Source: Desulfofustis limnaeus (GTDB lineage Bacteria; Desulfobacterota; Desulfobulbia; Desulfobulbales; Desulfocapsaceae). Taken from it: a DNA stretch of 64,000 nucleotides. The notes under the pieces are model-generated. The model ran no database searches. It saw only the letters and a list, made by a program, of their open reading frames with translations, and was not told where the DNA came from. A program made the translations under genes and the position numbers. This document shows positions 781-30,869 of this stretch, in pieces (the first letter of the stretch is position 1; each line of letters starts with the position of its first letter). The stretch lies in the NCBI RefSeq assembly GCF_023169885.1, contig NZ_AP025516.1, positions 620,001 through 684,000 on the forward strand, given 5' to 3'.

Positions 781-1109
781 AGGGAAAATCCGGAGAGTTC
801 CGGAGCGAAGGGCCGATTACCGGTCCTAGTTCGTGGTCGGTGGCGGCGACGGTTTGAGCCGGGAAATTGTAAATGTTGGAGTTATGGTCTCTGTCCTTGC
901 CGAATTTCTCGCCGCCCACCGCGCTGACACGGTCGTTCGGTCGGATCGAGGATTCGGCTTGCTTTCGTCATTGCTGCCGAACGAACTACCAAAAACCAAA
1001 GCGTATTATGCCATATTTTTGAGGAAACGGAAATGATATTTTATTAGGTTTGTAACAATTCCGCTCCGTGTCATCGTATCCGAATGGCGACAAATGCTCT
1101 GCCGACTGG
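781..1109. other. Intergenic region
   Basis: About 330 bases lie between the GH17 gene start and the end of the EamA gene, both on the reverse strand. The part near 1000-1070 is AT-rich and probably carries the GH17 promoter, but I could not find a convincing -35/-10 pair. Short open frames here show no family resemblance. Confidence 0.5.
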
Positions 1110-2024
1110 TCAGGACATGAGCAGGTAGATGCCGAAGATAGCGGTGATGGTTCCGATGATGGCGCGGAGTGAAACATGCTCCCGATAGAGGAAGTAAGAG
1201 AAAGGGATAATGGCAATCGGCACCAGTGACAGGAAGGTGGCAGCGACTCCGGTAGCCAGATAGTGCAGGGACAGCAGGGAGAGTGAGACGCCAAGAAAGG
1301 GGCCGACCAGGGCGCCGGTGCTGGTGAATACCACTGCACGGCTGTCGGCAAGAGCGGATCTGACCAGAAACCAGCGCCGGCTGACGGTGAAATAAAGAGC
1401 GAAGCAGACAAAGGCGGCAATGGCCCTGATCTGGGTGGCGCTGACGGCGTCCAAGTAGTCGGTTTCGGTATGCATGCCGGCCTTGCTCAGGATGTAGCCC
1501 CCCGCCTGGCCGAGCATGGCCCCGAGCCCGTAGACGATGCCGATGGCGGTGACGGCCCGGGCCTGACGGCGACCGATCGGTACGGCGCGGGGCGCCCGCT
1601 CCATGATGACCAGGCAGACGCCGATCAGGGTGACGAGAATACCGAGCCACTGATGAGGGAGATAGCTCTCGTCCAGCAGCAGCCAGCCGATAACGGCTGC
1701 CGACGGGGCGGCCAGGCTGTGCAGCAGCATGGCGAGGCGAGGTCCGAGTTCAACGAGTGCTTTGAATAAAAAGATGTCGCCGATGAAAAATCCGACGATA
1801 CCGGAAAGACTAAGCAGCACCCAAGCGGACAGGGGAAAGCCGGTGGGCAGGGGAGAGCCATCGCGCACCAGGAGGAACACCGAAAAGAGCAGCAGGGCGA
1901 CGCTCAGGCGAATGATGTTCACCGGAGTGGCCCCCACTCGCCGCGAGGCGACTTCGAAACACTGGATGCTGATGGTCCAGCAAAGAACGGTGGTCAGCGC
2001 GATGGCTTCGCCGAAATAGTTCAT
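1110..2024 (-). CDS. EamA/DMT-family permease
   Basis: A 304-residue, strongly hydrophobic protein with about ten predicted membrane helices arranged as two EamA repeats, the usual size and layout for the drug/metabolite transporter superfamily. The second repeat begins near residue 155 after a basic loop (GRRQAR). The substrate cannot be told from sequence; members export amino acids, sugars, nucleotides or small metabolites. It lies 44 bases after the lytic transglycosylase gene on the same strand and may be cotranscribed with it. No clear Shine-Dalgarno precedes the ATG at 2024. Confidence 0.85.
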   Translation of the reverse strand: MNYFGEAIALTTVLCWTISIQCFEVASRRVGATPVNIIRLSVALLLFSVFLLVRDGSPLPTGFPLSAWVLLSLSGIVGFFIGDIFLFKALVELGPRLAMLLHSLAAPSAAVIGWLLLDESYLPHQWLGILVTLIGVCLVIMERAPRAVPIGRRQARAVTAIGIVYGLGAMLGQAGGYILSKAGMHTETDYLDAVSATQIRAIAAFVCFALYFTVSRRWFLVRSALADSRAVVFTSTGALVGPFLGVSLSLLSLHYLATGVAATFLSLVPIAIIPFSYFLYREHVSLRAIIGTITAIFGIYLLMS

Positions 2025-2068
2025 GGGGTTGTTGGGAGTGAAAAATGAGTGGCAGGAATGATTTTAGT

Positions 2069-4030
2069 TCACAAGGCAGGCAGGCAATCCACGGTGGTCA
2101 GCCACGACGAGCCGTTGGTCTTGTCGAACTTTTCCAGGAAAAGCTCGTCGCTTCGGTAGAGCTCGTTGGTTGTGTAGCGGGATGGAAATTTGTCGAGTTG
2201 GCGGGGCCCACCGTTGTAGAGCGAGTAAAGCCAGCCGGCCAGAAACCGTTCATCGCCACCGCCTTCACCGGAGAAGGCGGTGCGTTTAGGCGCGATGTAC
2301 CGGTTGAGATAAAGGCTCAGGATCTCCGCTCCGGCCAGGCTGTTGTAGCGAATATTCCACCGTAATTCCTGCATGTCGTAGATGCCTCGCCAGACTTTCT
2401 CGTTGATCTGCATGATACCGACCGACGTGTTGTTGTAGGAGAGTAGGTAGACAATCTTGTTGTCCTTCACCACAAACTGGCGAAAGCAGCTTTCCTGCCA
2501 GGCGGTGGCATGCATCATCCGGGAGAACCAGTCGGGGTTAAGGTTTGTCACCGTTATTTTGGCCTGCTGGGATCGGGTTGCTTCCTGTACGACTTTGTGC
2601 ACTTTCGGCAGCAGCTGCTCGGCACTGACGATGCCGGCTGTCCACTCGCGGATCTCATTCATGCCCGGCAGCGCGGCATGGGCGGCGCGTATGGTGAACA
2701 GGAGGGCCGTTGTCCGCTGCAGCAGGCCGGCCCCGTGCCGGAGCCATGATGCGTCGGGCGGCTCAGAGGGTGGGGGCTCGGGGGCAGCAGGATCGGTGGG
2801 GAATAGCTGGTCAGGTTCCGGCGTTGCCGGTGGCGCGGGCGGTACCGGCAACGTGTCGTCAAGGCCGAGGACCCGGCGCAGGCGTGGATCGACTCCCTCA
2901 CCTTCATTCAACGTTTCGTTGCTCAGCATGAGGGCCAGCCGATAAAAGCCGGCACGGCTGATCTCAACACCGAGTAGCGGTCCGATCTGATCGATTCCCG
3001 ACAGGGCGTCGGCGGCGGTGAAAAAACTGAGGTAGCCAAGCAGGTTATTGCTGTCACCCGGATCGAGATGGCGCCTGAAGAGGGGCCGGAGCACCTGCCA
3101 GGTCTGCATGAACTGGTCCCTGACGAACCGATCGGTCAGATGATTGTTGGTCAGCGCATCTTCGAATTCGTATCGGACCGTCAGCATGCTGTCGAGCAGC
3201 AAGTGCCGATCCGCCAGGCTCAGTGGTTTTTCGGATAGCCGGTCGATGAGGTGGACGAGCATGGCGTCCCAGCTCTTCCACAGAGCGATGATTTTGGCTT
3301 GCGCCTCTTCGCTGATGCCATCTTCTGCCGGTTCACCGGTTGGTGCCGCCGGCGGATGATCAACCTGAGCAAGGATGTCGACGCGCAAGTCGGTGGGGCT
3401 CAGTACCGGTCGGTCGGGATAGATGCTGTCCAGGATTTGCTCGGTGGAGCTGCTGCCATCATCGATGGCTTGGCTGAGCAGGAATTGCTTGAGATCACCA
3501 ACCGGTGGGGCCAGGTTGAGGGTGATACGGCCCAGGTAGGAATGGACGTGTTCCTTGATCAGGTTATACAGCAGTTCGACCAGCGGTACCGCTCGTCCGG
3601 AACGGTCCAACAAGGCCGAGTCGTGCGTCTGGAAGCGCAGCTGCCAGTGACGGTCGATAGCCGGTTGCTGCAGCAAGACCACAGAACCTTGCCAACCCAT
3701 GGGGGCCAGGCATCTTCCGGCAATCGGCGTGCCCCAGTATAGGGAAATGTCGGTCTGAAAACGCAACAAGCTGCCGTCGCTGCTTATCTGGGGGCGACTG
3801 AGGCGGATGTCGTTGCACCCTTGGTTCATCGAAACCACTCGTGCCTGTTCACCGGGTTCCGGATACGCCTGGTCGACAATCAGCGCGCGCAGCAGTTCCA
3901 TGTCCATGCTCATCGGTATCCGGACCGTTTCCGCTGCAGATGAAACGCTGGTTCCCAGAAGCAGAATCATCAGCAAGACGCCCACGAGGGGTGGTGTCGG
4001 CCTCTTACGTTGACGATGATGAGTGGACAT
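2069..4030 (-). CDS. Periplasmic lytic transglycosylase-like protein (SLT domain)
   Basis: A 653-residue protein with a basic N-terminus and a signal peptide (residues about 14-33, ending SSAAE). The first two thirds match no domain I recognise and include a Pro-rich linker near residues 395-430. The C-terminal region holds an SLT/lysozyme-like fold: TAWQESCFRQF with probable catalytic Glu513, followed by GIMQIN and an ILSLYLNRY segment. Such enzymes cleave the glycan strand of peptidoglycan in the periplasm. GGGAG lies about 10 bases before the ATG. The long N-terminal part is unusual for a simple Slt and may be a scaffold or regulatory domain. Confidence 0.8.
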   Translation of the reverse strand: MSTHHRQRKRPTPPLVGVLLMILLLGTSVSSAAETVRIPMSMDMELLRALIVDQAYPEPGEQARVVSMNQGCNDIRLSRPQISSDGSLLRFQTDISLYWGTPIAGRCLAPMGWQGSVVLLQQPAIDRHWQLRFQTHDSALLDRSGRAVPLVELLYNLIKEHVHSYLGRITLNLAPPVGDLKQFLLSQAIDDGSSSTEQILDSIYPDRPVLSPTDLRVDILAQVDHPPAAPTGEPAEDGISEEAQAKIIALWKSWDAMLVHLIDRLSEKPLSLADRHLLLDSMLTVRYEFEDALTNNHLTDRFVRDQFMQTWQVLRPLFRRHLDPGDSNNLLGYLSFFTAADALSGIDQIGPLLGVEISRAGFYRLALMLSNETLNEGEGVDPRLRRVLGLDDTLPVPPAPPATPEPDQLFPTDPAAPEPPPSEPPDASWLRHGAGLLQRTTALLFTIRAAHAALPGMNEIREWTAGIVSAEQLLPKVHKVVQEATRSQQAKITVTNLNPDWFSRMMHATAWQESCFRQFVVKDNKIVYLLSYNNTSVGIMQINEKVWRGIYDMQELRWNIRYNSLAGAEILSLYLNRYIAPKRTAFSGEGGGDERFLAGWLYSLYNGGPRQLDKFPSRYTTNELYRSDELFLEKFDKTNGSSWLTTVDCLPAL

Positions 4031-6356: not shown

Positions 6357-7523
6357 TCAGAGATTCTGCCGGTACAGGGCTGCGATCTCTTCAGGATTTG
6401 ATTCTCTGGGATTGGTTGCCAGACAGGGGTCACGAAAGGCCATGTCGGCCAGACGAGGTAGGTGTTCGTCGCGCACGCCACGATCGCCAAGGCGTTGATT
6501 GATGCCGACCGCTCCACGCAGTCGAGCCACACTGGAGGCGATTGCCTGGGCCCTGGCCGACGGTGGAGTGGCATCGATCTGGAGACCCATCAACCTCCCC
6601 AATCGCTCGTATTTTTCGTCGGCAAACGGGTAGTTATAGAGGATCGCTTTTTCCAGCAGCAGGGCGTTGCATTCGCCGTGGGGTAAATCCATGCGGCCGC
6701 CGAGGGCATGCGCCATGGCATGAACGATACCGAGGCTGGCATTGGAAAAGGCCAGACCGGCCATCAGGCTGGCCATCATCATTTTGTCGCGATATCCAGG
6801 ATTTGTCAAATCATGGCAGGCCTTGACGAGATTGTCGAAAATCAGTTTTATTGCCGCTTCCGCAGCCATGTCGGTGAGCGGTGAGGAGGCGGTGGAGACT
6901 GCTGCTTCGAAGGCGTGACAGAGGGCATCCATACCGGTTGCAGCGGTCAACTCGACCGGCATGGTGGTGGTGGTCAGCGGATCGACCAGAGCGACGTCCG
7001 GGATGACCATCTTGCTGATGATGGCGATTTTTACCTGCCGAGAGGTATCGGAAATAATGGCGAATTGTGAGACATCCGCCGATGTTCCGGCGGTTGTCGG
7101 GATAAACAGCAACGGTGGTACCGGCTTGCCTACTTCATCGACTCCTTCGTATTCGGTGATGACGCCGCCATTGGTGACGACAACGCCGATACCCTTGGCG
7201 CAATCCATGGGACTGCCGCCGCCAACAGCAACGATCAGATCACAACCATGGTCCCGATAACGATCGGCGCCGGCCATCACTTCGTGGTCTCTTGGGTTGG
7301 GAGAGATGTCGGCGAAGGTGAACACATCGATGCCATTCTGTTTCATGCTGGTTTCGACCCGGCCGGCCCAGCCGTTGGCCAGCACCCCTGGGTCCGACAC
7401 GAGAAGGACCCGGGAAGCGCCGAGATTGCTGGCGTGGCGGCCGGCCAGTTCAAGGGAACCGGCGCCGTAAACGATCTCGGGGGCGAGAAATTTGCGGAGG
7501 TTGAAAAGAAGATGGCTATTCAT
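6357..7523 (-). CDS. Iron-containing alcohol dehydrogenase
   Basis: A 388-residue group III (iron-dependent) alcohol dehydrogenase. Seen are the NAD(P)-binding GGGSPMDCAKG, PTTAGTSADVS, and the metal-binding region: GMDALCHAFEA, SLGIVHAMAHALGG and LPHGECNA. The cytosolic enzyme interconverts alcohols and aldehydes; the exact substrate is unknown. The frame extends to 7568, but ATG 7523 begins the family-like MNSHLLFNLRKFLAPEIVYG and has GGAGAG upstream. The hybrid kinase gene follows within about 20-30 bases. This is one of three Fe-ADH-superfamily genes in the window, the others at 11382 and 46081. Confidence 0.93.
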   Translation of the reverse strand: MNSHLLFNLRKFLAPEIVYGAGSLELAGRHASNLGASRVLLVSDPGVLANGWAGRVETSMKQNGIDVFTFADISPNPRDHEVMAGADRYRDHGCDLIVAVGGGSPMDCAKGIGVVVTNGGVITEYEGVDEVGKPVPPLLFIPTTAGTSADVSQFAIISDTSRQVKIAIISKMVIPDVALVDPLTTTTMPVELTAATGMDALCHAFEAAVSTASSPLTDMAAEAAIKLIFDNLVKACHDLTNPGYRDKMMMASLMAGLAFSNASLGIVHAMAHALGGRMDLPHGECNALLLEKAILYNYPFADEKYERLGRLMGLQIDATPPSARAQAIASSVARLRGAVGINQRLGDRGVRDEHLPRLADMAFRDPCLATNPRESNPEEIAALYRQNL

Positions 7524-7730
7524 CGATGGCGCTCTCCGAGGGATCGTTACGGCGCTGGCGGTCGGCACCGGGTCAGATAATCTTAGTATCCATATCCACT
7601 CTGGGATTGTATGCTACCTTGCCAGGCTTGAGAAGACAATTATGGATTTTTCTCGACTGCTGTGGGAGAGGAAGAAGGATGCAGCCAGGCGATACCGGTG
7701 CGCAATCCGGCCGAAAGAGCGCCGGTGTCC

Positions 7731-8291
7731 TTACCAGGCCCGCACTTGTCCGGTATCCAAGTGAACAAAGTTTGAATCGGCATAGTAGCCGACCCCGCCG
7801 CGCCGCAGAGACCTGGCGATATCACGGAGTCTGCTGGTTTTCAAATCGGTGATGCGGACATCCAGGGCCTGGCCCTGCAGGTGGAGGCTCTTTTGCGCGA
7901 CACCATTGCTTTTTTGCCGTAACATGGCATTGGTTCGTGGTGAGCGATAACCGGAGATGACCTCGATGGTGCCGCTGCTGCCGGCTCGTCTCTGGACGTG
8001 ACAGAGTGTTTCCAGCAGGCGGAGATCGATGGGATGGCTTTCTCCGGTGCGATGGTCGCGTAGAAAGTGGTTGATGCGGCGAAGCGTTTTGCTGGAGCAG
8101 GATCCGGGATTGAATTCTATTTCGAGCGTTTCTTCGGTATGGGTATGAAAAAAACAAAGCGGATGCTTCGTGAACGCAGCACCTTGAGCGGGCAACGGCA
8201 GCGTGATCAGGGCGGCGACTGATAGCTGGGCAGCAGCGATGAGCAAGGAACGACGGGACAGGCGGAACTCTGAGCTTCTCTGGTTCGTCAT
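7731..8291 (-). CDS. DUF882/YcbK-like M15-type peptidase, Tat-exported
   Basis: A 186-residue protein beginning at ATG 8291, with a twin-arginine-type leader (LSRRSLLIAAA, residues about 11-22) ending near AQGAA. The mature part has the DUF882 pattern: SGYRSPRTNAML, HLQGQALDVRI and NFVHLDTGQVR, supplying His/Asp zinc ligands like D-Ala-D-Ala carboxypeptidases of family M15. Characterised relatives act on cell-wall peptides. The gene lies 19 bases after the L,D-transpeptidase gene, the classic ycbB-ycbK pairing, so an operon in peptidoglycan remodelling is likely. The open frame extends upstream to 8474, but that part overlaps the transpeptidase gene. Confidence 0.9.
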   Translation of the reverse strand: MTNQRSSEFRLSRRSLLIAAAQLSVAALITLPLPAQGAAFTKHPLCFFHTHTEETLEIEFNPGSCSSKTLRRINHFLRDHRTGESHPIDLRLLETLCHVQRRAGSSGTIEVISGYRSPRTNAMLRQKSNGVAQKSLHLQGQALDVRITDLKTSRLRDIARSLRRGGVGYYADSNFVHLDTGQVRAW

Positions 8292-8310
8292 GGTAGATGT
8301 CGGCTGAGGG

Positions 8311-10122
8311 TTATTGCCTGGCAGCAAGCAGGTGCAGCAGTTTTTCGTCTCTCTGATAAATATCGGCATTAAAACGGATTGTTCCGTTGTTGTCAACCCA
8401 TGCGGTCTGATACGTGATATGGATCGGCAGCCGCTCGCGAAGGGAAATGACCTTGCGCCGGCCACTGGCGACAATCTTGTCGATATCCTCCATGGTCCAG
8501 CCCTCGTTGTTCAGATCCAGGCAGAACAACGCCAGTTGCAGCGGTTGACTGACCCGGATACAGCCGTGACTGAATGAACGCGAAGCATGGTTGAAGAGAT
8601 CACGTGACGGGGTGTCGTGCAGATAGACGGAATGGTGATTGGGAAAAATGAACTTGACTCGGCCGAGAGCATTCCACGGTCCCGGGTCCTGACGCAGCAG
8701 ATAACGTGACATCTGCGCCGGCGTAACTTGGTTCCAGTCGATCGCGGTGGAATCGAGTTCGTGTGCGTCTGGCTGCCAGCTGGAAAAGAGACGGATTCGC
8801 CGCTCCGCCAGATGATGGGGATTCTTCCGCAGGGCCGGCAGCTCTTCGTTACGGGCGATGCTTGGTGTGACATTCCAGAACGGGTTGAACTCGAGATAGC
8901 GGATGGTGTCGGAAAAAACCGGCGTCTGGTGCTGCAGCTTACCGACGATCACCGGCAGATCGTGTATCACCTCGCCGTCGCGTACCGCTTTGAGGCGGTA
9001 GGCGGCGATGTTGACCATCAGGTAGGTGTCGCTGAGCTGGTGATCCTGCCAGCGCCATCTGGTCATGTTGGCACGGATGATAGCCACCAGTTCGGCAGGG
9101 GATCGGTTGAGCATGGCCAGGGTTTGTGGTCCGATGATGCCGTCGGCTGCGAGGCCGTGCCTGGTCTGAAAAGCACGTACCGCCTCGATCAATTGGTGGT
9201 GGTAATGATCGGTGGTCGAAAGATCGGCTGACAACCCGAATTCGTCAACCGTCAGCCGTTGTGCGATGAGGGTGAGGCGCCGGTCAGTGTCTCCGGGACG
9301 GATCAACGGGCCGTCGGGAATGGTTGGCCACTGGGCCGACAGTGCCAGCTTGCGGTAACGGTCGAGAGCCTCTTTCAGGCTGGTGTAGTAATGATGCTGA
9401 GGAGGGAGAGAATTCAGGTAGGCGCCAAGATCGCTGACCCCCAAAGCGAGCCGTACCGCCTGCACCGGGTCGAATTTGGTGTTGCCGGCGCTCAGAAATA
9501 GCTCCGGATCGGCATGGCGGAGCTTCATTTGACCGAAGCTCACATCATGGATGTATTTTGCAAGATTATAGGTCAGCAGCAGATCGAGATCGGCCAAGTC
9601 TTCCGGATGGTGCGATGACCAGAGCGATTCGATGGACGCCACCTCATAATCTTCCGGGACAAGTCCTTCTCGATACGATTCGCGCAAGCTCTCCAGGATG
9701 ATGGCAGCGGTTTCTGTCGGGCCGGCGGTGCTCACCCATAGCGGGCGGTTGCCCAATTCCGCGTAGATGGCGGCGAGACAGAATTCCCGTTGCTCGATGA
9801 GTGGACGCTGATCGTCCAGTGCGTACAGGGCCAGATCTACGCAGGACAGCTGTTCATTCAAGGCCGTGGTCAATGGATCTTCAGGGTCCTGGTCCGCCTG
9901 AGCGAGAAGCGGCGCGGAACTCAGTACCAATACGAGTCCAAGATAGAACGCGATCAGCGGTAGTCCAGAATAACGAAAACGGGAAGGAGTGGAAGGGGGG
10001 AGAGGTTTGCAGGTTCGACCGGGGGCGTATCTCATGTATAATAAAAATAAGTTGACGTAACGTGATGGTGATTGCTTCCTATTGCTAACAGAGGACTGCC
10101 CATTTGGCAAGGATTCAATCAT
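8311..10122 (-). CDS. L,D-transpeptidase (YcbB/LdtD-like)
   Basis: A 603-residue protein with one membrane anchor or signal segment (about residues 52-72), an N-terminal scaffold domain, a peptidoglycan-binding repeat (AVRAFQTRHGLAADGIIG) and a C-terminal YkuD catalytic domain with SHGCIRV, catalytic Cys near 521. These enzymes make 3-3 cross-links or attach proteins to peptidoglycan in the periplasm. Start choice: the frame opens at 10242, but ATG 10122 follows GGAAGGG with good spacing; ATG 10035 lacks a ribosome binding site. The YcbK-like gene follows in the same operon. Confidence 0.92.
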   Translation of the reverse strand: MIESLPNGQSSVSNRKQSPSRYVNLFLLYMRYAPGRTCKPLPPSTPSRFRYSGLPLIAFYLGLVLVLSSAPLLAQADQDPEDPLTTALNEQLSCVDLALYALDDQRPLIEQREFCLAAIYAELGNRPLWVSTAGPTETAAIILESLRESYREGLVPEDYEVASIESLWSSHHPEDLADLDLLLTYNLAKYIHDVSFGQMKLRHADPELFLSAGNTKFDPVQAVRLALGVSDLGAYLNSLPPQHHYYTSLKEALDRYRKLALSAQWPTIPDGPLIRPGDTDRRLTLIAQRLTVDEFGLSADLSTTDHYHHQLIEAVRAFQTRHGLAADGIIGPQTLAMLNRSPAELVAIIRANMTRWRWQDHQLSDTYLMVNIAAYRLKAVRDGEVIHDLPVIVGKLQHQTPVFSDTIRYLEFNPFWNVTPSIARNEELPALRKNPHHLAERRIRLFSSWQPDAHELDSTAIDWNQVTPAQMSRYLLRQDPGPWNALGRVKFIFPNHHSVYLHDTPSRDLFNHASRSFSHGCIRVSQPLQLALFCLDLNNEGWTMEDIDKIVASGRRKVISLRERLPIHITYQTAWVDNNGTIRFNADIYQRDEKLLHLLAARQ

Positions 10123-20415: not shown

Positions 20416-22407
20416 GTGTCGTCACCTATGGTCGAACAGCGATTTCAGCACGATACTATTGTCGATAAAGAATCTTGTGTCAGGTTCGCCCCTTTCGCCG
20501 TTCTTGCGCTCACGAAAGAGGCAACGGTGGCGGGCGTCAACCCGGCCGGTGAACGGTTTGCCGGGCAGTCGGCGGAAACGCTGGTGGGGCGGCGGTTCGG
20601 TGAGGTGTTCTCGTGCACTAATGCCAAGATAAGCGGGGAGTGCGGGGCGAGAGAGGCGTGCCGGGACTGCCCGATGCGCGCCGCGATCAAACAGGTGCTG
20701 AATTCGGGCGCTCCACTGCATGATCGGGAAATCCGCCTGGACAACGATTCATCGGGAGGTCGCTCCAGATTCTATCTTGCTTCCGTCCTTCCCTCCTCCG
20801 TGGCGGGAGGTGAAGAACAGGTGCTAGCCGTCCTCAGCGACATAACGGAACGTAAGTTGATCGAATCCGCGCTGCGGGAGAGCGAGGAACGCTATCGGTT
20901 GCTGTCCGACGTGACCATGGAGGGCATCCTCATCCATAGGGAAGGCACCTTGCTGGATGCCAATGTCGCCCTGGCTCGCATGTTCGGTTACCAGCCGGGC
21001 GAGTTGCGGGGGCGCAATGTTATCGCCGAGGCGGTCCACGAGGAAGACCGTCCGCTCGTGCTGGCCAGGGTTGGCAAAGAATCCACCGAACCTTATGTGG
21101 TTCGCTGTTATCGCAAAAACGGCGATCTGTTTTACGCCGAATTCGAGGCTCGTAATATGGTCATTCGCGATGAAACAATGCGGGTGGTAGCGGTTCGCGA
21201 TGTCACCGAGCGTCGTCTTGCCGAACAGGCGCGCGAGCGTTTGCTGGAACAATTGCACCAGGCCCAGAAGATGGAGTCGCTGGGAAGTCTGGCCGGTGGG
21301 GAGGCTCATGACTTCAATAACCTGCTCCAGGCCATGAGCGGCAACATCCACATGCTTTTGAGAAACAGGGACGATGACAACCTAACCGAAAAGCGACTGC
21401 ACGTGGTGGCCGGAGCAATCGATCGTGCCGCCTATCTGGTCAGGCAGCTCCTACTGTTCAGTCGTAAAGCAGAATTACGTCGGCAGCCGGTCGATATTCG
21501 GCAAAGCATCGGGAGTGCTGTGGCCATGCTTGAGCGAACCATCCCGCGTATGGTCTCTTTCGAGCTTCGTCTTGATTCTGAGCTGCCGCTCATTCATGCC
21601 GATCCGATTCAAGTCGAACAAGTCCTGCTGAATCTGGCAACGAACGCTGTGGATGCCATGGCCGGCTGCGGCACCTTGACTGTCACCGCCGACAGCGTCG
21701 AGTTTTCCGATGAGCAGGCAGAAGGACACGGATTGCGGGCGGGCCACTTCGTGGTGTTGAGCATCGCCGACACGGGACAGGGCATGGATCGGGCAACCCG
21801 GGAACAGATGTTCGATCCCTTTTTCACCACGAAAGAGCCTGGCAAAGGGACCGGGCTGGGGCTGGCTTCGGTTTATGGTGTGGTCACTGGTCACGAGGGT
21901 GCCATCACCTGTAACAGCAGCCCTGGTGAGGGAACGACATTTACCATCTATTGGCCGGTGTCAGCCGAGCAACAAGTAATACCCGTTCAATTACCGGCAC
22001 TTGAGCGGCAGGGTACGGGGAGCGAAACCGTACTGGTGGTCGACGATGAAGCGCAAATCAGGGATTTGACGCGCGAGGTGCTGATCGACTTTAACTATCA
22101 GGTGGTGTTGACGGCGAGTGGCGAGGAGGCCTTGCAGGTGTTCGCCAAGCAGCCCGGGTCGGTGGACTTGGTTATTCTCGACATGAACATGCCCGGCATG
22201 GGCGGCTATCGTTGTCTGCAGGAACTGCGGCTGTTGGATCCAAGCGTGCCGGTGCTCATATCCAGTGGATACGCAGGCAGCGGGCCGGTCCAGGAAGCGC
22301 TGCAGGCCGGTGCCAGCGGTTTCATCGCTAAACCATATCTACTGACGGAACTGCTCAGCGTGGTCCGTTCTCTACTGGATGGTTCTCCGTCCAGGCACGT
22401 TGCTTGA
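20416..22407 (+). CDS. PAS hybrid histidine kinase with Cys-rich PAS and receiver
   Basis: A soluble kinase of 663 residues. The first PAS (about 25-140) contains five Cys in the pattern C-x9-C-x5-C-x2-C after SCTN, a PAS variant common in anaerobic Deltaproteobacteria and a possible redox or metal site. A second PAS (about 155-275) ends DVTERR. The H-box reads GGEAHDFNNLL (His near 298) with Glu where Ile or Val is normal. HATPase motifs ADTGQGMDRA and GTGLGL follow, then a receiver with Asp near 589 and IAKPY. GTG 20416 or ATG 20428 may be the start; neither has a good ribosome binding site. The promoter must lie in or beside repeat copy 3. Confidence 0.88.
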   Translation: MSSPMVEQRFQHDTIVDKESCVRFAPFAVLALTKEATVAGVNPAGERFAGQSAETLVGRRFGEVFSCTNAKISGECGAREACRDCPMRAAIKQVLNSGAPLHDREIRLDNDSSGGRSRFYLASVLPSSVAGGEEQVLAVLSDITERKLIESALRESEERYRLLSDVTMEGILIHREGTLLDANVALARMFGYQPGELRGRNVIAEAVHEEDRPLVLARVGKESTEPYVVRCYRKNGDLFYAEFEARNMVIRDETMRVVAVRDVTERRLAEQARERLLEQLHQAQKMESLGSLAGGEAHDFNNLLQAMSGNIHMLLRNRDDDNLTEKRLHVVAGAIDRAAYLVRQLLLFSRKAELRRQPVDIRQSIGSAVAMLERTIPRMVSFELRLDSELPLIHADPIQVEQVLLNLATNAVDAMAGCGTLTVTADSVEFSDEQAEGHGLRAGHFVVLSIADTGQGMDRATREQMFDPFFTTKEPGKGTGLGLASVYGVVTGHEGAITCNSSPGEGTTFTIYWPVSAEQQVIPVQLPALERQGTGSETVLVVDDEAQIRDLTREVLIDFNYQVVLTASGEEALQVFAKQPGSVDLVILDMNMPGMGGYRCLQELRLLDPSVPVLISSGYAGSGPVQEALQAGASGFIAKPYLLTELLSVVRSLLDGSPSRHVA

Positions 22408-23955: not shown

Positions 23956-23994
23956 ATCGCCACGTTTTGGCAACAAAACGTGGCGATTTTTTTT
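23956..23994 (+). terminator. Intrinsic terminator
   Basis: Perfect 14-base stem ATCGCCACGTTTTG paired with CAAAACGTGGCGAT, a four-base loop GCAA, then a run of T. It ends the small membrane protein unit and insulates the hydrogenase cluster that starts at 24135. Confidence 0.9.
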
Positions 23995-24134: not shown

Positions 24135-25082
24135 ATGATGCATCCACAGAAGACCGTATACTGGTTGCAGGGCGGGGGGTGCGGGGGGGATACCTTTTCT
24201 TTCCTGGGCAGTGAATTCCCTGATGTTATTGAATTGTTTCGGCGTCTAAACCTCCAATTGCTGTGGCATCCATCGTTGTCCAACAGCTCCCCCGCCGATC
24301 ATGAGTTGCTGCTGTCCAACATACTTACCGGCGAGCAGCCTCTGGACATCCTCCTGGTCGAGGGCTCGGTCATCTGCGGTCCGGCTGGTACCGGCATGTT
24401 TGATACCAAAAACGGCCAACCCAAGAAGGAGTTGATTTATAATCTTGCCGCCCAGGCCGGGCTGGTGCTGGCAGTGGGAACTTGTGCCTGTTTTGGCGGT
24501 TTCGGCAGCGATCAGGTTACCGAGGCCACCGGGCTGCAGTTCGCCAGAAAGGAGCGGGGCGGCTTGCTCGGCGTCAACTATCGGAGCAAGAACGGTCAAC
24601 CGGTCGTGAACCTGGCCGGTTGCCCCTGTCATCACGATGTCATTGTCGGGGCCTTGATCTCGGCGGCCACCGAAGTAGCCTGGGAACTGGATGAATATCA
24701 ACGGCCCATCGAATGGTTTTCCACCACGGTGCACCAGGGCTGTACCCGCAACGAATACCATGAATATCGGGTGGAGGAGTCGGATTTCGGTGAGATGGGC
24801 TGTCTCTTTTTTCACATGGGGTGCGCTGGTCCCTTGGTGCCGGGACCATGCAACAAGCTGTTGTGGAATCAGCAATCGTCGAAACCGCGCGCTGGCGTCC
24901 CCTGCTTCGGCTGTACCGATCCCGACTTTCCTCGAGCGACGCCGTTTTTCCAGACCCCCAATATCGAAGGGATTCCCATTTCTCTACCGATGGGTGTCAA
25001 TCGTGCCCATTACATGGTGTACAAAGGGATGGCGGCAGCGGCGGCCCCGGAGCATCTGAAAAAGCGAACGTCTAAAGTATAA
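24135..25082 (+). CDS. [NiFe] hydrogenase small subunit, cytosolic
   Basis: A 315-residue iron-sulfur subunit without Tat signal or C-terminal anchor, so cytosolic. The proximal-cluster motif reads WLQGGGCGGDT: the second Cys of the usual CxxC is Asp. Other proximal ligands lie in GTCACFGG and AGCPCHHD, each with an extra Cys. The HQGCTRNEYHE, HMGCAGP, GPCNKLLWN and PCFGCTDPDFP motifs give the other two clusters. A three-Cys/one-Asp proximal cluster is known from the actinobacterial-type (group 1h) enzyme of Ralstonia. The gene starts a five-gene unit with a hybrid kinase and a diguanylate cyclase, so a sensory hydrogenase is the favoured reading. ATG 24138 is an equally possible start. Confidence 0.93.
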   Translation: MMHPQKTVYWLQGGGCGGDTFSFLGSEFPDVIELFRRLNLQLLWHPSLSNSSPADHELLLSNILTGEQPLDILLVEGSVICGPAGTGMFDTKNGQPKKELIYNLAAQAGLVLAVGTCACFGGFGSDQVTEATGLQFARKERGGLLGVNYRSKNGQPVVNLAGCPCHHDVIVGALISAATEVAWELDEYQRPIEWFSTTVHQGCTRNEYHEYRVEESDFGEMGCLFFHMGCAGPLVPGPCNKLLWNQQSSKPRAGVPCFGCTDPDFPRATPFFQTPNIEGIPISLPMGVNRAHYMVYKGMAAAAAPEHLKKRTSKV

Positions 25083-25104
25083 CCAGCGCGGAGTACAAAG
25101 AATC

Positions 25105-26658
25105 ATGATTCTCAACACCACGGGTATTACCATTCCCGTCAACCGGGCTGAGGGTGACCTGGAGATCAGGGTGGAGATAGAGGATGGGGTGGTCACCGAT
25201 GCCTGGAGCGCCGGGACGATGTATCGGGGGTTCGAAACGATGATGCGCGGCCGGGGCGCTCTGGACGGCCTGGTGGTGACCCCGAGGATTTGCGGTATCT
25301 GCAGCCTCACCCATTTGACAGCGGCGGTCGAGGCGCTGGATGCGATCAGCGGCGTTGTGCCGCCCGACAATGCCCGTCGTCTGCGGAACCTGGCCTTGAT
25401 GATCGAAACCGTGCAGAGTGATGTGCGGCAAAGCATTCTCATGTTCATGGTCGATTTTGCCAACCGGCAAGCGTATCGCGGCCTGCCGGCGCTCGATGAG
25501 GCCTGTGCCCGCTATGCCCCCCTGTCTGGTCGGGCTGCCATCGAAGTGGTGCGCGAAACGAAACGGCTCCTGCAGGGAGTGGCGATCATCGGTGGCCAGT
25601 GGCCGCACACGTCCTTCATGGTACCCGGGGGCGTGACGTCCATGCCGGATATCTCGAAGATCCTGCAACTCCGGATCATCATCGAGCGTTTTACCGCATG
25701 GTATGAGAGGACCGTGCTTGGTTGCAGTCTGGAACGTTGGCAGGCGGTGGACAGTATCGCTGCGCTTGATGCCTGGCTGGAGGAGAGTGAACAGCATCGC
25801 AACAGCGAACTTGGCTTCTTCCTGCAGTTGGCCCGGCAAACCGGTCTGGCCGAGCTTGGCCGAGGCCCCAATTGCTTTCTCTCTTTCGGCAATCTGCCCC
25901 TCCCCGAGGATACCACCGTTTCGGGGCGGGGTGGGCGTTTCCAGCAGGCCGGCTGGGCGGAGGGAACGACGGTGCATCCACTGGATGCGACCAAGATCGC
26001 GGAAGATACCAGCCATGCATGGTTCGCTCCGAAAAAGGAACCGCTCCATCCCTACGACGGTGAGACCAAACCGTATGCCTCCGGCCACAGCGGTCAGGTC
26101 TATTCGTGGATCAAAGCGCCGCGCTATGGCGGCCGAGTCGTGGAGACCGGACCCTTGGCCGAGATGATAATCGATGGTCGACCGCTGTTTCTCGACCTGA
26201 TCGGGCAGCAGGGACCGAGTGTTCTGGTCCGGCAACTCGCTCGCTTCATTCGTCCGGCATATGTCCTTGATACCATGCACATCTGGATTGATGAATTGCG
26301 CCGGCACAGCATGGATTTCTTTTATCGATCGACTCGGGCCATTCCCGACGGGGAGGCGGCCGGTATGATCCAGGCGGCGCGGGGGGCTCTCGGCCACTGG
26401 GTGAAAGTTGAAGACGAACGGATCACTCACTACCAGATCATCACCCCGACTGCCTGGAATGGTTCTCCCCGGGATGCATCCGGTGCCAGGGGCGCCTGGG
26501 AGGCAGCATTGATCGGCACGCCGATTGACGACAGCGCCAACCCGGTGGCAGCCGGTCACGTCATCCGCTCCTTCGATCCCTGTCTGGTGTGCGCCGTCCA
26601 TTGCCTGGTGGGCGGCAGGAAGCGCGGACGAATGACTCTTGGGGTGGGTAACCGGTGA
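25105..26658 (+). CDS. [NiFe] hydrogenase large subunit
   Basis: A 517-residue catalytic subunit. Nickel-iron site motifs are both complete: RICGICSLTH near residue 65 and DPCLVCAVH near residue 493. After the final His comes an 18-residue tail (CLVGGRKRGRM...) that a maturation endopeptidase would remove, which fits the protease gene that follows. Classical regulatory hydrogenases (HupV/HoxC) lack such a tail. The protein is presumed to pair with the small subunit to split H2 in the cytosol. The gene begins 22 bases after the small subunit gene. Confidence 0.95.
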   Translation: MILNTTGITIPVNRAEGDLEIRVEIEDGVVTDAWSAGTMYRGFETMMRGRGALDGLVVTPRICGICSLTHLTAAVEALDAISGVVPPDNARRLRNLALMIETVQSDVRQSILMFMVDFANRQAYRGLPALDEACARYAPLSGRAAIEVVRETKRLLQGVAIIGGQWPHTSFMVPGGVTSMPDISKILQLRIIIERFTAWYERTVLGCSLERWQAVDSIAALDAWLEESEQHRNSELGFFLQLARQTGLAELGRGPNCFLSFGNLPLPEDTTVSGRGGRFQQAGWAEGTTVHPLDATKIAEDTSHAWFAPKKEPLHPYDGETKPYASGHSGQVYSWIKAPRYGGRVVETGPLAEMIIDGRPLFLDLIGQQGPSVLVRQLARFIRPAYVLDTMHIWIDELRRHSMDFFYRSTRAIPDGEAAGMIQAARGALGHWVKVEDERITHYQIITPTAWNGSPRDASGARGAWEAALIGTPIDDSANPVAAGHVIRSFDPCLVCAVHCLVGGRKRGRMTLGVGNR

Positions 26659-27098
26659 AAGCGACCATCATCTGCATCGGTAACCGCTTTGTTACCGCTG
26701 ATGCGGCCGGCCCGGCAGTTTACGATCGATTGCAGCAGCTTGCACTGCCAGAGCATGTCGAGGTGATCGACGGTGGCCTGCAAGGGCTGAATTTGTTGCC
26801 ACTGCTAGAACGGGGCGGACGCGTGGTGTTTGTCGATGCGGTACGCGGTTTCGCCGAGCCCGGCACCTTAGTCGTGTTGGACGGCGCTGAAGTGGCGGCT
26901 ACCGAGGGGGGTGAGCATTTCGGTCACGAGGCGGGACTGAGATACCTGCTGACGATCCTGCCGAAAGTCTGCGATGGGACTCTTCCGGAGGAAATAGCCC
27001 TGGTCGGTATCGAAGGGGCGTGGTCTCCGTCGTTGATTGATCAGGCGGCCGGGGTCAGCGTCAGGCTGGCGGTTAACGGACTTCAGGGATGCCGATAA
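26655..27098 (+). CDS. Hydrogenase maturation protease (HybD/HupD-like)
   Basis: A 147-residue protein of family M52 size. The nickel-sensing GNxxxxDxxG motif is seen as GNRFVTADAAGP, followed by VIDGGLQGLNLLPLL, VVFVDAVRG and GIEGAWSPSL. It should cut the C-terminal tail of the neighbouring large subunit once nickel is inserted. Starts at GTG 26655, overlapping the large subunit stop (GTGA), and ends by sharing a base with the kinase start (TAATG), so translation of the three is coupled. Confidence 0.85.
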   Translation: MKATIICIGNRFVTADAAGPAVYDRLQQLALPEHVEVIDGGLQGLNLLPLLERGGRVVFVDAVRGFAEPGTLVVLDGAEVAATEGGEHFGHEAGLRYLLTILPKVCDGTLPEEIALVGIEGAWSPSLIDQAAGVSVRLAVNGLQGCR

Positions 27099-29920
27099 TG
27101 GAGAGGGCCAGAAACGCTGCGCTGCAGCGGGAAATCGACATGCTGCGCCAGGAGATCAGAGTCGCCCGCGAAGCGGCTCAGCTCACCGCCGATTTCGTGG
27201 TCCGACAATTCGAGCAGACCGAGCGGATGCTGCGCCGGGTCCAAGTGGCCAACGCCGAGCGACAGGCGGTGCTCGATGCCGCCACGCAATTGTCGATCAT
27301 CGCCACCGACTTGGACGGGACCATCCGACTGTTCAGTAAGGGTGCCGCTACCCTGCTCGGCTATCGGCCGGCGGAGATGATCGACAAGCGCACGGTCCTG
27401 TCTTTGCATTGTTCCGAAGACTTGGTCCAGTACGGAGAAAAACTCAGTGGCATCGTCGGGGCCGACTTTCAGGACATGCGTGTTTTCGATCTGCTGGTCA
27501 AGCAAAAGCAGAGTCAGGCGCGGGAGTGGTCTTACGTGCGCAAAGACGGCACCCGTCTGCCGGTCAGTCTCTCCGTCACCAGCTTGCACAATCCAGACGG
27601 CAGAGTGGCCGGTTATCTCTTTGCGGCTATGGATATGACCTTGCAGAAAGAGATGGAGCGGGCCCTGATCGAGGCCAAAGAGGCGGCCGAGGCAGCCAAT
27701 GCTTCGAAGGGCGATTTCCTGGCCCGAATGAGCCATGAAATTCGGACTCCGATGAACGGCGTTATCGGTATGGCCACCTTGCTGGAGAAGACCGGCCTCG
27801 ATGTCAAGCAGCGCAGTTATGTGGAAAAGCTGATCGGTTCGGCCAACACCCTGCTGCACCTGATCAACGATATCCTCGATTTCTCGAAGATCGATGCCGG
27901 TCACCTGCGTCTCGAGCACGTGGCTTTCAACCTCGAGGACATTCTCGGCAACATTGCCAACGTGGTTGGCATGCAGGCGGAGAAAAAGGGGCTGGAATTC
28001 CTTTTTCGCATCGATCCCCGGGTTCCGAACCGGTTGATTGGCGATCCGCTGCGGCTGAGCCAGATTTTGATGAATCTGGCCGGAAACGCGGTGAAGTTCA
28101 CCGAGCATGGAGAAATAGTCGTATCTGCCCAGGTGGAAGACCAGAACCACAACGACCTAACGGTCCGTTTCTCGGTCAGAGATAGCGGCATCGGTTTGCA
28201 AGGAGATCAGGTCGACGCACTTTTTTCTGCGTTCAGCCAGGCCGATGATTCGATTACTCGGAAATATGGCGGTACCGGGTTGGGTCTGGCCATCTGTAAA
28301 CAGTTGACGGAGCTGATGGGGGGCAGGATCTGGGTGGAGAGTGAGCCGGGCAAGGGCTCTGAGTTTATTTTCACCGCCCGTCTGCAATGTGTGGAACGAC
28401 ATGACCCGGCCCGGACGATGCTCTTTGATCAACTGGTCGGGTTGAAGGCCTTGGTGGTCGATGACAACTCCATTGCCCGGGACGTGCTGTCGTCGATGCT
28501 GCGTTCCTTGAGAATCGAGGTCGATACCGCCGTGGATGGGGAATCGGCTCTCAGCCTGCTGGAACAGGCGACCCGGGACGGCGAGCCGTATGAAGTGGTC
28601 CTGCTCGATTGGATGATGCCGGGGATCGACGGTATCGAGACGGCCCGGCGCATCAGAGGGAACAAGGATATTTCGCGCATTCCCGCCATGCTGATGGTCA
28701 CCGCCAACGCCCGTGAGGATGCTTACATGGAGGCGAAGAATGCCGGGCTGGACGCCTTTCTGCTCAAACCGGTATATGCCTCCATCATGCATGACACCCT
28801 GCTCGACATCATCGGTGTCGAGACCCAGGTCAAGGTCAGCCGGATCGATGAGCACCGGCAGCAGGTGGACCTGGGCACGAGACGCGGTTCACGGATCCTG
28901 CTGGTCGATGATAACATCATCAATCAGGAGGTGGCTGCCGAGTTCCTGCAAAGCGTCGGTATGGAGGTTACCATCGCCGGGAATGGCCGGGAAGCGATCG
29001 AGATACTGAACCGGTCATCGTATGCCTTGGTGTTGATGGATATCCAGATGCCGGAAATGGACGGTCTCGAGGCCACCAGACGGATTCGTCGCCAGGAGCG
29101 TTTCCGGGATCTGCCGATCATCGCCATGACCGCCCACGCGATGACCGGGGATCGTGACAAAAGCCTGGCTGCCGGGATGAACGATCATATCACCAAACCG
29201 ATCGACCAGAAGGTCCTCTACCAGACTTTGCAGCGGTGGATACCGGCCGGGGAGCGAACCGGCTTGTCGACCCCGACGGTCGAGCAGCCGGCCGGCGACA
29301 GTGTAGTCATGCCGGAATTGCCGGGAATCGACAGCGACCAGGCGATCAGAGTGCTCAACGGCAACACCCGGCTGTTTCGTAAGATGCTCCATGAATTCAA
29401 ACATGAATATGCGTTGTTGCCGACTCGGTTGCGTGAGTTAAGCGAGACGGGGAGCTGGAGCGAGATAGGCGTGCTGGCTCATACCCTCAAAGGCGTGGCC
29501 GGTTACATTGGCGCTCCCGATCTCGGAGCGACTGCCCGGCAGTTGGAAGACGCCTTGAAGGAGGGACGGCGCGATGAGGCCGGCGGGTTACTCATCGCTT
29601 TCATCGATGCCGTCGACGCGGTGCTCTCAGCTTTGGCGGCGCTGCCGCCGTTGGTCGTCTCCCCACAACAGCCGGCTTCCCGATCTGAGAACCTCGATTC
29701 TGAACAGCAAGGCGAGCTGCTACGTGCTCTGATTGGGCAGCTGGAAAGGGGTGAGGCGGGTGCCGAACAAGGGTTTACAGAGCTTCGTGAACAGCTGCAG
29801 GTGGTCGGGGGCGAACCGCTGCTGCAAATGATCGAACAGAAGATCGACGATATCGAATATGAAGAAGCGGCGGCAGCTGCCCGCGAGCTGCTCATGCTTC
29901 TCGAACAACAGACGGAATAA
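27098..29920 (+). CDS. Soluble PAS hybrid histidine kinase with two receivers and HPt
   Basis: A 940-residue cytosolic kinase. Order: coiled N-terminus (1-65), PAS (about 65-185), HisKA with MSHEIRTPMNG (His near 213), HATPase (RDSGIGL, GTGLGLAI), receiver 1 (LLDWMMPGIDG, Asp near 504), receiver 2 (LMDIQMPEMDG, Asp near 647) and a C-terminal HPt with LAHTLKGVAGYIG (His near 795). There is no membrane segment and no obvious input domain beyond PAS, so a protein partner is plausible. ATG 27098 overlaps the protease stop as TAATG; ATG 27089 is too close to AGGG. The GGDEF regulator follows seven bases after the stop. I infer it reads the redox state of the upstream hydrogenase. Confidence 0.93.
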   Translation: MERARNAALQREIDMLRQEIRVAREAAQLTADFVVRQFEQTERMLRRVQVANAERQAVLDAATQLSIIATDLDGTIRLFSKGAATLLGYRPAEMIDKRTVLSLHCSEDLVQYGEKLSGIVGADFQDMRVFDLLVKQKQSQAREWSYVRKDGTRLPVSLSVTSLHNPDGRVAGYLFAAMDMTLQKEMERALIEAKEAAEAANASKGDFLARMSHEIRTPMNGVIGMATLLEKTGLDVKQRSYVEKLIGSANTLLHLINDILDFSKIDAGHLRLEHVAFNLEDILGNIANVVGMQAEKKGLEFLFRIDPRVPNRLIGDPLRLSQILMNLAGNAVKFTEHGEIVVSAQVEDQNHNDLTVRFSVRDSGIGLQGDQVDALFSAFSQADDSITRKYGGTGLGLAICKQLTELMGGRIWVESEPGKGSEFIFTARLQCVERHDPARTMLFDQLVGLKALVVDDNSIARDVLSSMLRSLRIEVDTAVDGESALSLLEQATRDGEPYEVVLLDWMMPGIDGIETARRIRGNKDISRIPAMLMVTANAREDAYMEAKNAGLDAFLLKPVYASIMHDTLLDIIGVETQVKVSRIDEHRQQVDLGTRRGSRILLVDDNIINQEVAAEFLQSVGMEVTIAGNGREAIEILNRSSYALVLMDIQMPEMDGLEATRRIRRQERFRDLPIIAMTAHAMTGDRDKSLAAGMNDHITKPIDQKVLYQTLQRWIPAGERTGLSTPTVEQPAGDSVVMPELPGIDSDQAIRVLNGNTRLFRKMLHEFKHEYALLPTRLRELSETGSWSEIGVLAHTLKGVAGYIGAPDLGATARQLEDALKEGRRDEAGGLLIAFIDAVDAVLSALAALPPLVVSPQQPASRSENLDSEQQGELLRALIGQLERGEAGAEQGFTELREQLQVVGGEPLLQMIEQKIDDIEYEEAAAAARELLMLLEQQTE

Positions 29921-29927
29921 TCAGGCG

Positions 29928-30869
29928 ATGTACGAGAATCCCCGAATCTTGATTGTTGACGACGAGAAAATGAATCTCAAGGTCCTTGCCGACCTGCTCA
30001 AGGAAGATTATGTGCCGGTATTGGCCCGTAACGGCGAACAGGCCATTCAGCATGCCTTGAGCGATACGCCGCCGGATCTCATCCTGCTCGATGTCATCAT
30101 GCCGCAGATGGGCGGGTACGAGGTTATCAAGTATCTGAAAAATAACGATAAAACAAAAAATATTCCGGTTATCTTCGTCACGGCTCTCAGTTCCACCGAG
30201 GACGAGGAGTTCGGTCTGCGTCTCGGGGCTGTCGACTACATCACCAAACCGTTCAGCCCGCCTATCGTCAAGATCCGGATCCGCAATCACCTACGCATCG
30301 TTCACCAGTATAAACTACTTGATCAGCTGGCACACCTCGATGGTTTGACGGAAATTTGCAACCGCAGACGTTTCGAAGAAGAGTTCAAAAAGGAATGGGA
30401 CCGGTCTCTGCGCAACCGATTGCCCTTCTCGCTGGCCATGATCGATGTGGACTATTTCAAACAATACAATGACCATTATGGTCATGCCATGGGTGATCTG
30501 GCTTTGCAGCGGATTGCCAAGGCCCTGTCCGAGGTGCTCAGGCGACCGGCGGATTTTATCGCCCGCTACGGTGGGGAAGAGTTTGTCATGCTGATGCCGG
30601 AAACCGACCACCAGGGAGCCCTGCAGGTGGCCGAACATTCCCTGAAAAAGGTGGTTGGCCTGGCAATCCCACATCATTATTCCCGGGCTGCCGATTACAT
30701 CACCGTCAGTATCGGCTTGTCGACCATCCATCCGGCAGTAGCAGCCTCACAGAAGACCTTCCTCGCCACCGCCGACCAAAATCTCTACCGCGCCAAAGAG
30801 GGTGGGCGCAACCGCGTCGTCGGGAGCGTTATCAGCCGTGATGCGGTGTCACTTCAACATCTTTGCTAA
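29928..30869 (+). CDS. REC-GGDEF response regulator (diguanylate cyclase)
   Basis: A 313-residue protein: receiver domain (ILIVDDE, acceptor Asp in LILLDVIMP near residue 54, Lys in ITKPF) and a GGDEF domain with IDVDYFKQYNDHYGH and an intact RYGGEEF near residue 215. An RPAD sequence lies exactly five residues before GGEEF, the expected I-site for product inhibition. The protein should make cyclic di-GMP when phosphorylated. The frame opens at 29859 inside the kinase gene; ATG 29928 begins the receiver. As last gene of the hydrogenase-kinase unit it is the likely output. Confidence 0.94.
   Translation: MYENPRILIVDDEKMNLKVLADLLKEDYVPVLARNGEQAIQHALSDTPPDLILLDVIMPQMGGYEVIKYLKNNDKTKNIPVIFVTALSSTEDEEFGLRLGAVDYITKPFSPPIVKIRIRNHLRIVHQYKLLDQLAHLDGLTEICNRRRFEEEFKKEWDRSLRNRLPFSLAMIDVDYFKQYNDHYGHAMGDLALQRIAKALSEVLRRPADFIARYGGEEFVMLMPETDHQGALQVAEHSLKKVVGLAIPHHYSRAADYITVSIGLSTIHPAVAASQKTFLATADQNLYRAKEGGRNRVVGSVISRDAVSLQHLC

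Follow-up and report, generated by a model that had tools for sequence, protein, structure and literature searches.

How a sensory hydrogenase passes its signal to a partner protein is described as unsettled even for HoxBC-HoxJ (available parts of PMC6978683 and PMC10073562), and a five-gene locus of Desulfofustis limnaeus, a relative of sulfate-reducing bacteria, raises this question anew: how might a [NiFe] hydrogenase be connected to cyclic di-GMP? The locus occupies positions 24,135 to 30,869 of the 64,000-nucleotide stretch analyzed here (the window; positions 620,001 to 684,000 of contig NZ_AP025516.1, assembly GCF_023169885.1), in a genome of 4.23 Mb on a single contig. Our answer is that the unit is likely a soluble sensory hydrogenase of the HydDB group 2c kind, which would sense H2 and act through a hybrid histidine kinase on cyclic di-GMP, with a short N-terminal helix of the kinase as the putative contact to the hydrogenase. 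Three things are read directly from the sequences: the gene order and its conservation, the integrity of the sites for catalysis and phosphate acceptance, and the fact that the helix goes specifically with this hydrogenase while the output enzymes vary. The genes and elements concerned are listed below.

24135..25082, + strand: [NiFe] hydrogenase small subunit (SSU), 315 amino acids (aa); PF14720 and PF01058; nearest solved relative Huc (7uur/7utd)
25002..25052, + strand: C-terminal tail of the SSU, residues 290-306, RAHYMVYKGMAAAAAPE; candidate docking surface containing no metal ligand; the tail is different in HoxB and Huc
25105..26658, + strand: [NiFe] hydrogenase large subunit (LSU), 517 aa, with the metal-binding motifs RICGIC and DPCLVCAVH
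26602..26655, + strand: C-terminal tail of the LSU, 18 residues past the last metal ligand, presumably cleaved during maturation
26655..27098, + strand: hydrogenase maturation protease of the HycI/HupD type, 147 aa, GTG start; PF01750, TIGR00072 above cut-off
27098..29920, + strand: soluble hybrid histidine kinase, PAS-HisKA-HATPase-REC-REC-HPt (Pfam); open reading frame (ORF) listed from 27089
27116..27244, + strand: N-terminal motif of the kinase, a predicted helix common to partners of this hydrogenase type; candidate H2-adaptor or docking module
27260..27649, + strand: kinase PAS domain (Pfam; residues 58-187 of the 943-residue ORF)
29384..29629, + strand: kinase HPt domain (Pfam; residues 766-847)
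29928..30869, + strand: REC-GGDEF diguanylate cyclase, 313 aa from the ATG at 29928, with GGEEF, RxxD I-site and REC aspartate

A first-pass annotation of the window had described five genes on one strand with overlaps or very short gaps, among them a 940-residue soluble kinase with PAS, two receivers and HPt, and a REC-GGDEF protein with intact active site and I-site. The arrangement is borne out by the ORF listing and the junctions: LSU and protease genes overlap in GTGA, protease and kinase genes meet in TAATG, and the cyclase gene begins 7 bases after the kinase gene. Pfam recovers every domain named there. The kinase most likely starts at the ATG at 27098, giving 940 aa; many relatives also begin at this point with MEK, and the listed ORF begins nine bases earlier. 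The cyclase shows the PleD-like features, with active site and I-site in RPADFIARYGGEEF and the REC aspartate in LILLDV. RxxD I-site, GGEEF, and REC aspartate were likewise found in 21 of the 22 tested rows of this architecture (window included), the remaining row (L071) ending at a contig end. Compared with Desulfofustis glycolicus (L009), all five genes differ by 0.04-0.14 per codon at the second position and by 0.45-0.51 at the third, which indicates protein-type constraint on each of them, beyond chance. The five genes are confirmed as real and intact.

Relatives were collected by a first scan of genome contigs (19 relatives; ten loci were later dropped as duplicates of refetched contigs) and by whole-genome LSU searches at E ≤ 1e-100. 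These found the LSU in 45 of the 257 order genomes searched and in 12 of 395 drawn from the phylum. After duplicate removal, 68 loci were annotated, plus three reference loci. A quick LSU tree of 68 rows, leaving out the incomplete rows L023, L025, and L123, was used only for grouping, as 24 of its 65 inner branches were open and a long-branch warning was given. It placed the window in a 25-row set with support 97. A hybrid kinase plus REC-GGDEF characterizes 23 of these rows, whereas L085 and L086 have a simple PAS kinase. The 23 rows were labelled by gene content; the test of neighbourhood conservation rests on the clade, not on this label. The contigs of L071, L084, and L085 end before any cyclase could be seen, leaving 22 readable rows, and the order SSU, LSU, protease, HPt-bearing kinase, REC-GGDEF is kept in 21 of these, window included. 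The exception, L086, is without a cyclase. Minor deviations are an HPt encoded as a separate ORF in L021, and a kinase with no PAS match and one REC match in Pfam in L116. The first-pass annotation had named a usual lack of the kinase and GGDEF neighbours as grounds for refuting its proposal; the relatives show the opposite.

The element on which our interpretation centers became visible on aligning the N-termini of the partner proteins. The motif L..EN..LR.E.RVAREAA.ITA.LVV.QF...E..L, about 44 residues long and predicted to be helical, stands at the start of the protein encoded after the hydrogenase. A profile seeded with 15 kinase N-termini, chosen by pattern, detected it in 52 of 64 scored partners (lowest score 29.9 bits); L023, L025, L113, and L123 were left unscored on account of contig end, broken frame, or gene calling. 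The 52 include six GGDEF proteins outside the seed, which matched with E-values from 3.9e-16 to 6.6e-10 against the 64 partners. What comes after the helix may be a hybrid kinase, a kinase of distant relationship, one without PAS, or a GGDEF domain alone. In neither the window kinase nor L100 is the helix covered by a Pfam family.

The first-pass annotation had looked to the kinase PAS domain for the contact with the hydrogenase. This is not favored by the comparison: several partner types have no PAS, namely L100 (GGDEF only), L116, and L095 (no PAS in Pfam), and their common element is the helix, which lies ahead of the PAS where there is one. The PAS domain was set aside as docking site, and the helix is most likely the part that binds the hydrogenase and relays the H2 signal.

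A shared N-terminus might also be no more than a stretch that orthologous kinases have inherited, or a coiled coil of the kind general in signalling proteins; it would then say nothing about docking. The motif is indeed helical and heptad-like, the PAS domain has been inherited together with it in L119, L121, and L122 (113-120 bits), and the GGDEF domain of L100 is nearest to the window cyclase (158 bits, next 149), so that parts of these proteins share ancestry; the latter match fits a shortened form of the same pathway as well as common descent. We nevertheless regard this explanation as unlikely, since the helix is kept ahead of kinase cores that are only distantly related to that of the window (18-34 bits for L085, L086, L119, L121, and L122, against 73-88 bits for their helices) and ahead of kinase-free GGDEF proteins (L100-L105, with no match to the window kinase core). 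Searched against the window genome without its helix, the L085 kinase gives 74 matches; the top one lies elsewhere (277 bits) and the window kinase comes last (25.8 bits), although the two helices match with 85 bits. No unlinked occurrence of the helix was seen in the genomes searched.

These specificity searches used an alignment of 21 helices (A1), two of them GGDEF-linked, at E ≤ 0.001 unless stated otherwise. Of the 257 genomes in the order sample, 36 carry the helix, at 41 places in total, and 35 of these 36 belong to the 45 LSU-bearing genomes. In the phylum sample, 11 of 395 genomes carry it, at 12 places, and each of the 11 is one of the 12 genomes that have the LSU. Within the class of the Sulfuricella genome, one of 274 genomes had the helix, the Sulfuricella genome itself, and two of four chosen genomes had it at E ≤ 0.01. 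The window helix is the sole match in its own genome. As the samples overlap, the distinct places number 53, and 51 of them adjoin such a hydrogenase: 48 on contigs with the LSU close by, one in G637 (the L024 locus), and two beside LSU fragments (G439:C230 and G352:C24). In G636 the helix adjoins a protease gene where the contig ends, and the LSU of that genome lies at the end of another contig; in G431 it starts 164 bases from a contig edge, where its setting is unreadable. None of the 53 places is a readable non-hydrogenase setting. Conversely, 10 of the 45 LSU-bearing genomes in the order sample and one of the 12 in the phylum sample lack the helix; they belong to the helix-free lineages, namely the multi-PAS family plus G405, G407, and G180.

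On the hydrogenase side, the C-terminal tail of the SSU is the candidate counterpart. Among 51 small subunits it reads RAHYMVYKGMAAAAAPE or close variants and ranks ninth of 293 windows of 17 residues for conservation; the windows ranked above it all surround the distal-cluster motif HQGCTRNEYHEY. The tail differs in HoxB and other lineages, and in HoxB a C-terminal peptide is needed for HoxJ binding. Because all rows of this type form one lineage, tail and helix became associated once, not independently.

The proposed course of events is as follows. H2 at the NiFe site would alter the state of the SSU-LSU complex, which would hold the N-terminal helix of the kinase, probably via the SSU tail and the distal-cluster region. 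H2 would thereby rearrange the helical dimer and with it the kinase, and phosphate would pass from His to REC to HPt and on to the REC of the diguanylate cyclase, leading to cyclic di-GMP; this route is suggested by the intact sites. In L100-L105, with the helix joined straight to GGDEF, the hydrogenase would control the cyclase without a kinase. A conformational signal is favored over electron transfer to the partner, as the helix-GGDEF and helix-HisKA proteins have no recognised cofactor-binding domain. Going further, we lean slightly towards a portable H2 adaptor, in which the helix of about 44 residues would dock on the conserved SSU tail and could be fused to almost any dimeric signalling enzyme, its minimal form switching GGDEF conformationally with no PAS, kinase, or electron-accepting cofactor.

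Several observations weigh against this interpretation. The helix is absent from 12 of the 64 partners (L026, L027, L106-L112, L114, L115, and L124) as well as from HoxJ (P0001) and the Ideonella GGDEF-EAL protein (P0002), and the L025 genome, in which the LSU frame is broken, yields no helix at E ≤ 0.01 despite the same SSU tail. Within the window kinase lineage, the mean identity of the helix (0.78) exceeds that of PAS (0.66) and stays below that of HisKA (0.82), and the helix window ranks only 127th of 400 for conservation. AlphaFold2 places a helix at kinase residues 3-66, but with a predicted local distance difference test score (pLDDT) below 50 for residues 25-66, and the SSU model (mean pLDDT 54.7) is too poor to map the tail. 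The helix was first noticed in proteins chosen for their adjoining hydrogenase, which leaves its absence elsewhere as the only independent test. As to the output, several kinase-bearing lineages among the annotated loci, e.g. L086 and L087-L099, have no cyclic di-GMP gene nearby, and the HD-GYP genes of L092 and L118 come only after other genes, which makes their link weaker.

The next gene encodes a signalling protein in nearly every readable relative. Beyond the window architecture, partners are of the HK-REC type in L087-L099 (L092 set apart), GGDEF proteins immediately 3' of the protease gene in L100-L105, PAS kinases in L024, L119, L121, and L122, HK-REC with a GAF-HD-GYP protein further on in L092 and L118, a GGDEF-EAL protein in L127, a hybrid kinase with REC-HD-GYP in L124, and HoxJ-type proteins in L026, L027, and L125. 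Pfam was run on 28 proteins of these lineages (10 + 9 on the partner side, besides neighbours); the others were judged by length and by profile matches to the window domains. Cyclic di-GMP outputs recur as REC-GGDEF, GGDEF, GGDEF-EAL, REC-HD-GYP, and GAF-HD-GYP. In view of the lineages with no such gene nearby, the general function would be H2 signalling, with cyclic di-GMP as one recurrent output.

Some of these loci deserve separate mention. Four genomes of the order hold two such systems each with different output proteins (L068 and L099 in G504, L084 and L094 in G480, L076 and L095 in G482, L085 and L093 in G546), as though a single gas fed two pathways. L108-L115 combine a tail-less LSU with a multi-PAS HK-REC partner lacking the helix, possibly a third way of coupling. 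In L106, a PAS-SpoIIE phosphatase-type protein is encoded directly 3' of hydrogenase and protease (7154-8563), which suggests an output via a PP2C-like phosphatase. The SpoIIE- and GGDEF-EAL-linked members look alike by eye to helix bearers, but as diverged helices they score only 3.2 and 1.6 bits and were rejected. For L107 and L124, a separate N-terminal type resembling that of HoxJ was likewise dropped, the profile from HoxJ, L026, and L027 giving just 6.4 and 11.1 bits. In L093, two fructose-1,6-bisphosphatase genes of different families lie just 5' of the HK-REC type hydrogenase (831-3647), and ORFs of comparable size (about 620 and 315 aa) stand ahead of several further loci in this lineage.

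What kind of hydrogenase is this? The best solved relatives of both subunits are those of Huc (E about 1e-112 and 1e-82), with 380 bits for the LSU against 239 for the next kind. We take Huc to be a group 2a hydrogenase. The quick LSU tree groups the window apart from both HoxC and Huc. The NiFe ligands are kept in the window LSU; the residue between the first two is Ile in the window, HoxC, and Huc, and Val in the group-1-like enzyme of the window genome (L001), and an Asp aligns with Asp15 of HoxC. The LSU tail after DPCLVCAVH measures 18 residues, compared to none in HoxC. Group 2b large subunits have no cleavable C-terminal extension according to the available part of PMC10073562; the window LSU has a presumably cleavable tail. 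The first-pass annotation had pointed to a cleavable-type tail with its own protease as a departure from classical sensors, and this proved right. The combination is also common, since a tail is present in 58 of 69 scored loci and in 41 of the 58 a protease gene directly follows the LSU. A strict coupling of the two was rejected, since the 11 tail-less loci show no protease (several on short contigs), but 12 of the 58 tailed loci have none nearby either, leaving a tendency only.

Tail and protease as in catalytic hydrogenases, together with the closeness to Huc, are also what one would see in a metabolic uptake enzyme of the Huc/group 2a kind, with kinase and cyclase regulating it or neighbouring processes with no contact to it. 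The unit holds no electron-acceptor gene among its ORFs and Pfam matches, however, and the adjacent gene is a signalling gene in nearly all readable relatives, with its N-terminus conserved rather than its enzyme part; we therefore consider an uptake enzyme improbable. As a further alternative, the FeS clusters of the complex might respond to redox state or O2, and H2 itself would not be the signal. The cluster ligands are unlike those of HoxB: at SSU position 19, which serves standard enzymes as a proximal-cluster ligand, all 51 of 51 rows of this type have Asp, whereas HoxB and L026 have Cys and the Huc relative has Asn. Yet Asp at this position is shared by L107, L124, and the multi-PAS lineage and hence is not peculiar to this type, and the NiFe ligands and maturation protease are kept, which a pure redox sensor would not need. 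We give this alternative a small chance, somewhat below that of the uptake enzyme.

For the class assignment we turn to HydDB, whose table links group 2b to histidine kinases and gives 2c the description "Diguanylate cyclase-linked (putative)" (available part of PMC5037454). The 2c consensus for the L2 motif is printed as SFDxCLVCTVH in the accessible part of PMC4853749; the window has SFDPCLVCAVH, one residue off, and CTVH occurs in other members, e.g. L117-L123 and L024. Of the features of group 2c, a diguanylate cyclase or phosphodiesterase within the unit is present as REC-GGDEF, and a large subunit of the group 2 kind is indicated by the Huc match and the tree placement. Judged by these sequence features, the window hydrogenase is most likely of the 2c kind.

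Outside the unit, a boundary and two further genes were seen. The boundary lies at the following position.

23956..23987, no strand: perfect 14-bp stem followed by a T-run, a terminator-like boundary 5' of the unit and the longest stem among seven sites

The number of terminator-like sites in the region, seven against 6.1 expected in shuffles, is not significant. A hybrid kinase with two PAS domains and a REC is encoded at 20416-22407 of the window, 5' of the unit and on its strand; other ORFs and the stem at 23956 intervene before the unit. Elsewhere in the window genome, outside the window, another large-subunit gene (G000:C1:3196414-3197667; L007, L003) contains an in-frame TGA and possibly encodes a selenocysteine-containing [NiFeSe] hydrogenase.

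A short common element ahead of different enzymes offers a specific, testable answer to the problem of signal transfer from a hydrogenase, and the helix-GGDEF proteins permit a minimal two-part test of H2-controlled cyclic di-GMP. If the proposal is true, the helix would be a defining molecular feature for group 2c, hitherto listed only as putative, and a ready module for synthetic H2 sensors.

Compared with known systems, the closest is HydDB group 2c itself, for which a group 2 type hydrogenase beside a diguanylate cyclase and H2 sensing with cyclic di-GMP have been proposed (available parts of PMC5037454 and PMC4853749). The first-pass annotation, while noting that some group 2-type hydrogenases near kinases or GGDEF genes had been proposed as sensors, knew of no worked-out system of this build. 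H2 sensing with cyclic di-GMP as output stands as the best reading, but the class and its likely H2-sensing role, and with them the pairing of an H2 sensor with cyclic di-GMP, are not new, having been put forward with HydDB 2c (same part of PMC5037454). The window differs from 2c as described there in the hybrid kinase phosphorelay between hydrogenase and cyclase, in the L2 residue given above, and in the adaptor-like helix, newly described here. The shared helix, the hybrid-kinase relay, and the conserved five-gene form met with no report in the open-access library searched, in a search in which helix or coiled-coil wording made up a small part and most subscription papers lay outside. As far as that library goes, what is new relative to the proposed class is chiefly the helix and its specificity across whole genomes, and besides it the relay through a hybrid kinase and the conservation of the five-gene unit.

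HoxBC-HoxJ of Cupriavidus necator H16 (group 2b; L125, pHG1) resembles the window in the order of SSU and LSU followed by a soluble PAS kinase, in the RICGIC-type L1 with Ile, and in the Asp at the HoxC D15 position. Unlike the window LSU, HoxC has no residues beyond the last His, and no protease gene is nearby; HoxJ lacks the helix, the SSU tail is different, and the neighbouring regulator is of the sigma-54 DNA-binding type. With respect to group 2b in general (HoxBC/HupUV), the window partner is a hybrid kinase with REC-REC-HPt and not of the HoxJ/HupT type. Mycobacterial Huc (group 2a; 7UTD, 7UUR, 7UUS) provides the closest solved structures for both subunits, and its Sphingopyxis relative (L126) shares the LSU tail and a nearby protease. 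This relative differs in having no adjoining signalling gene and an SSU tail not conserved with the window type.

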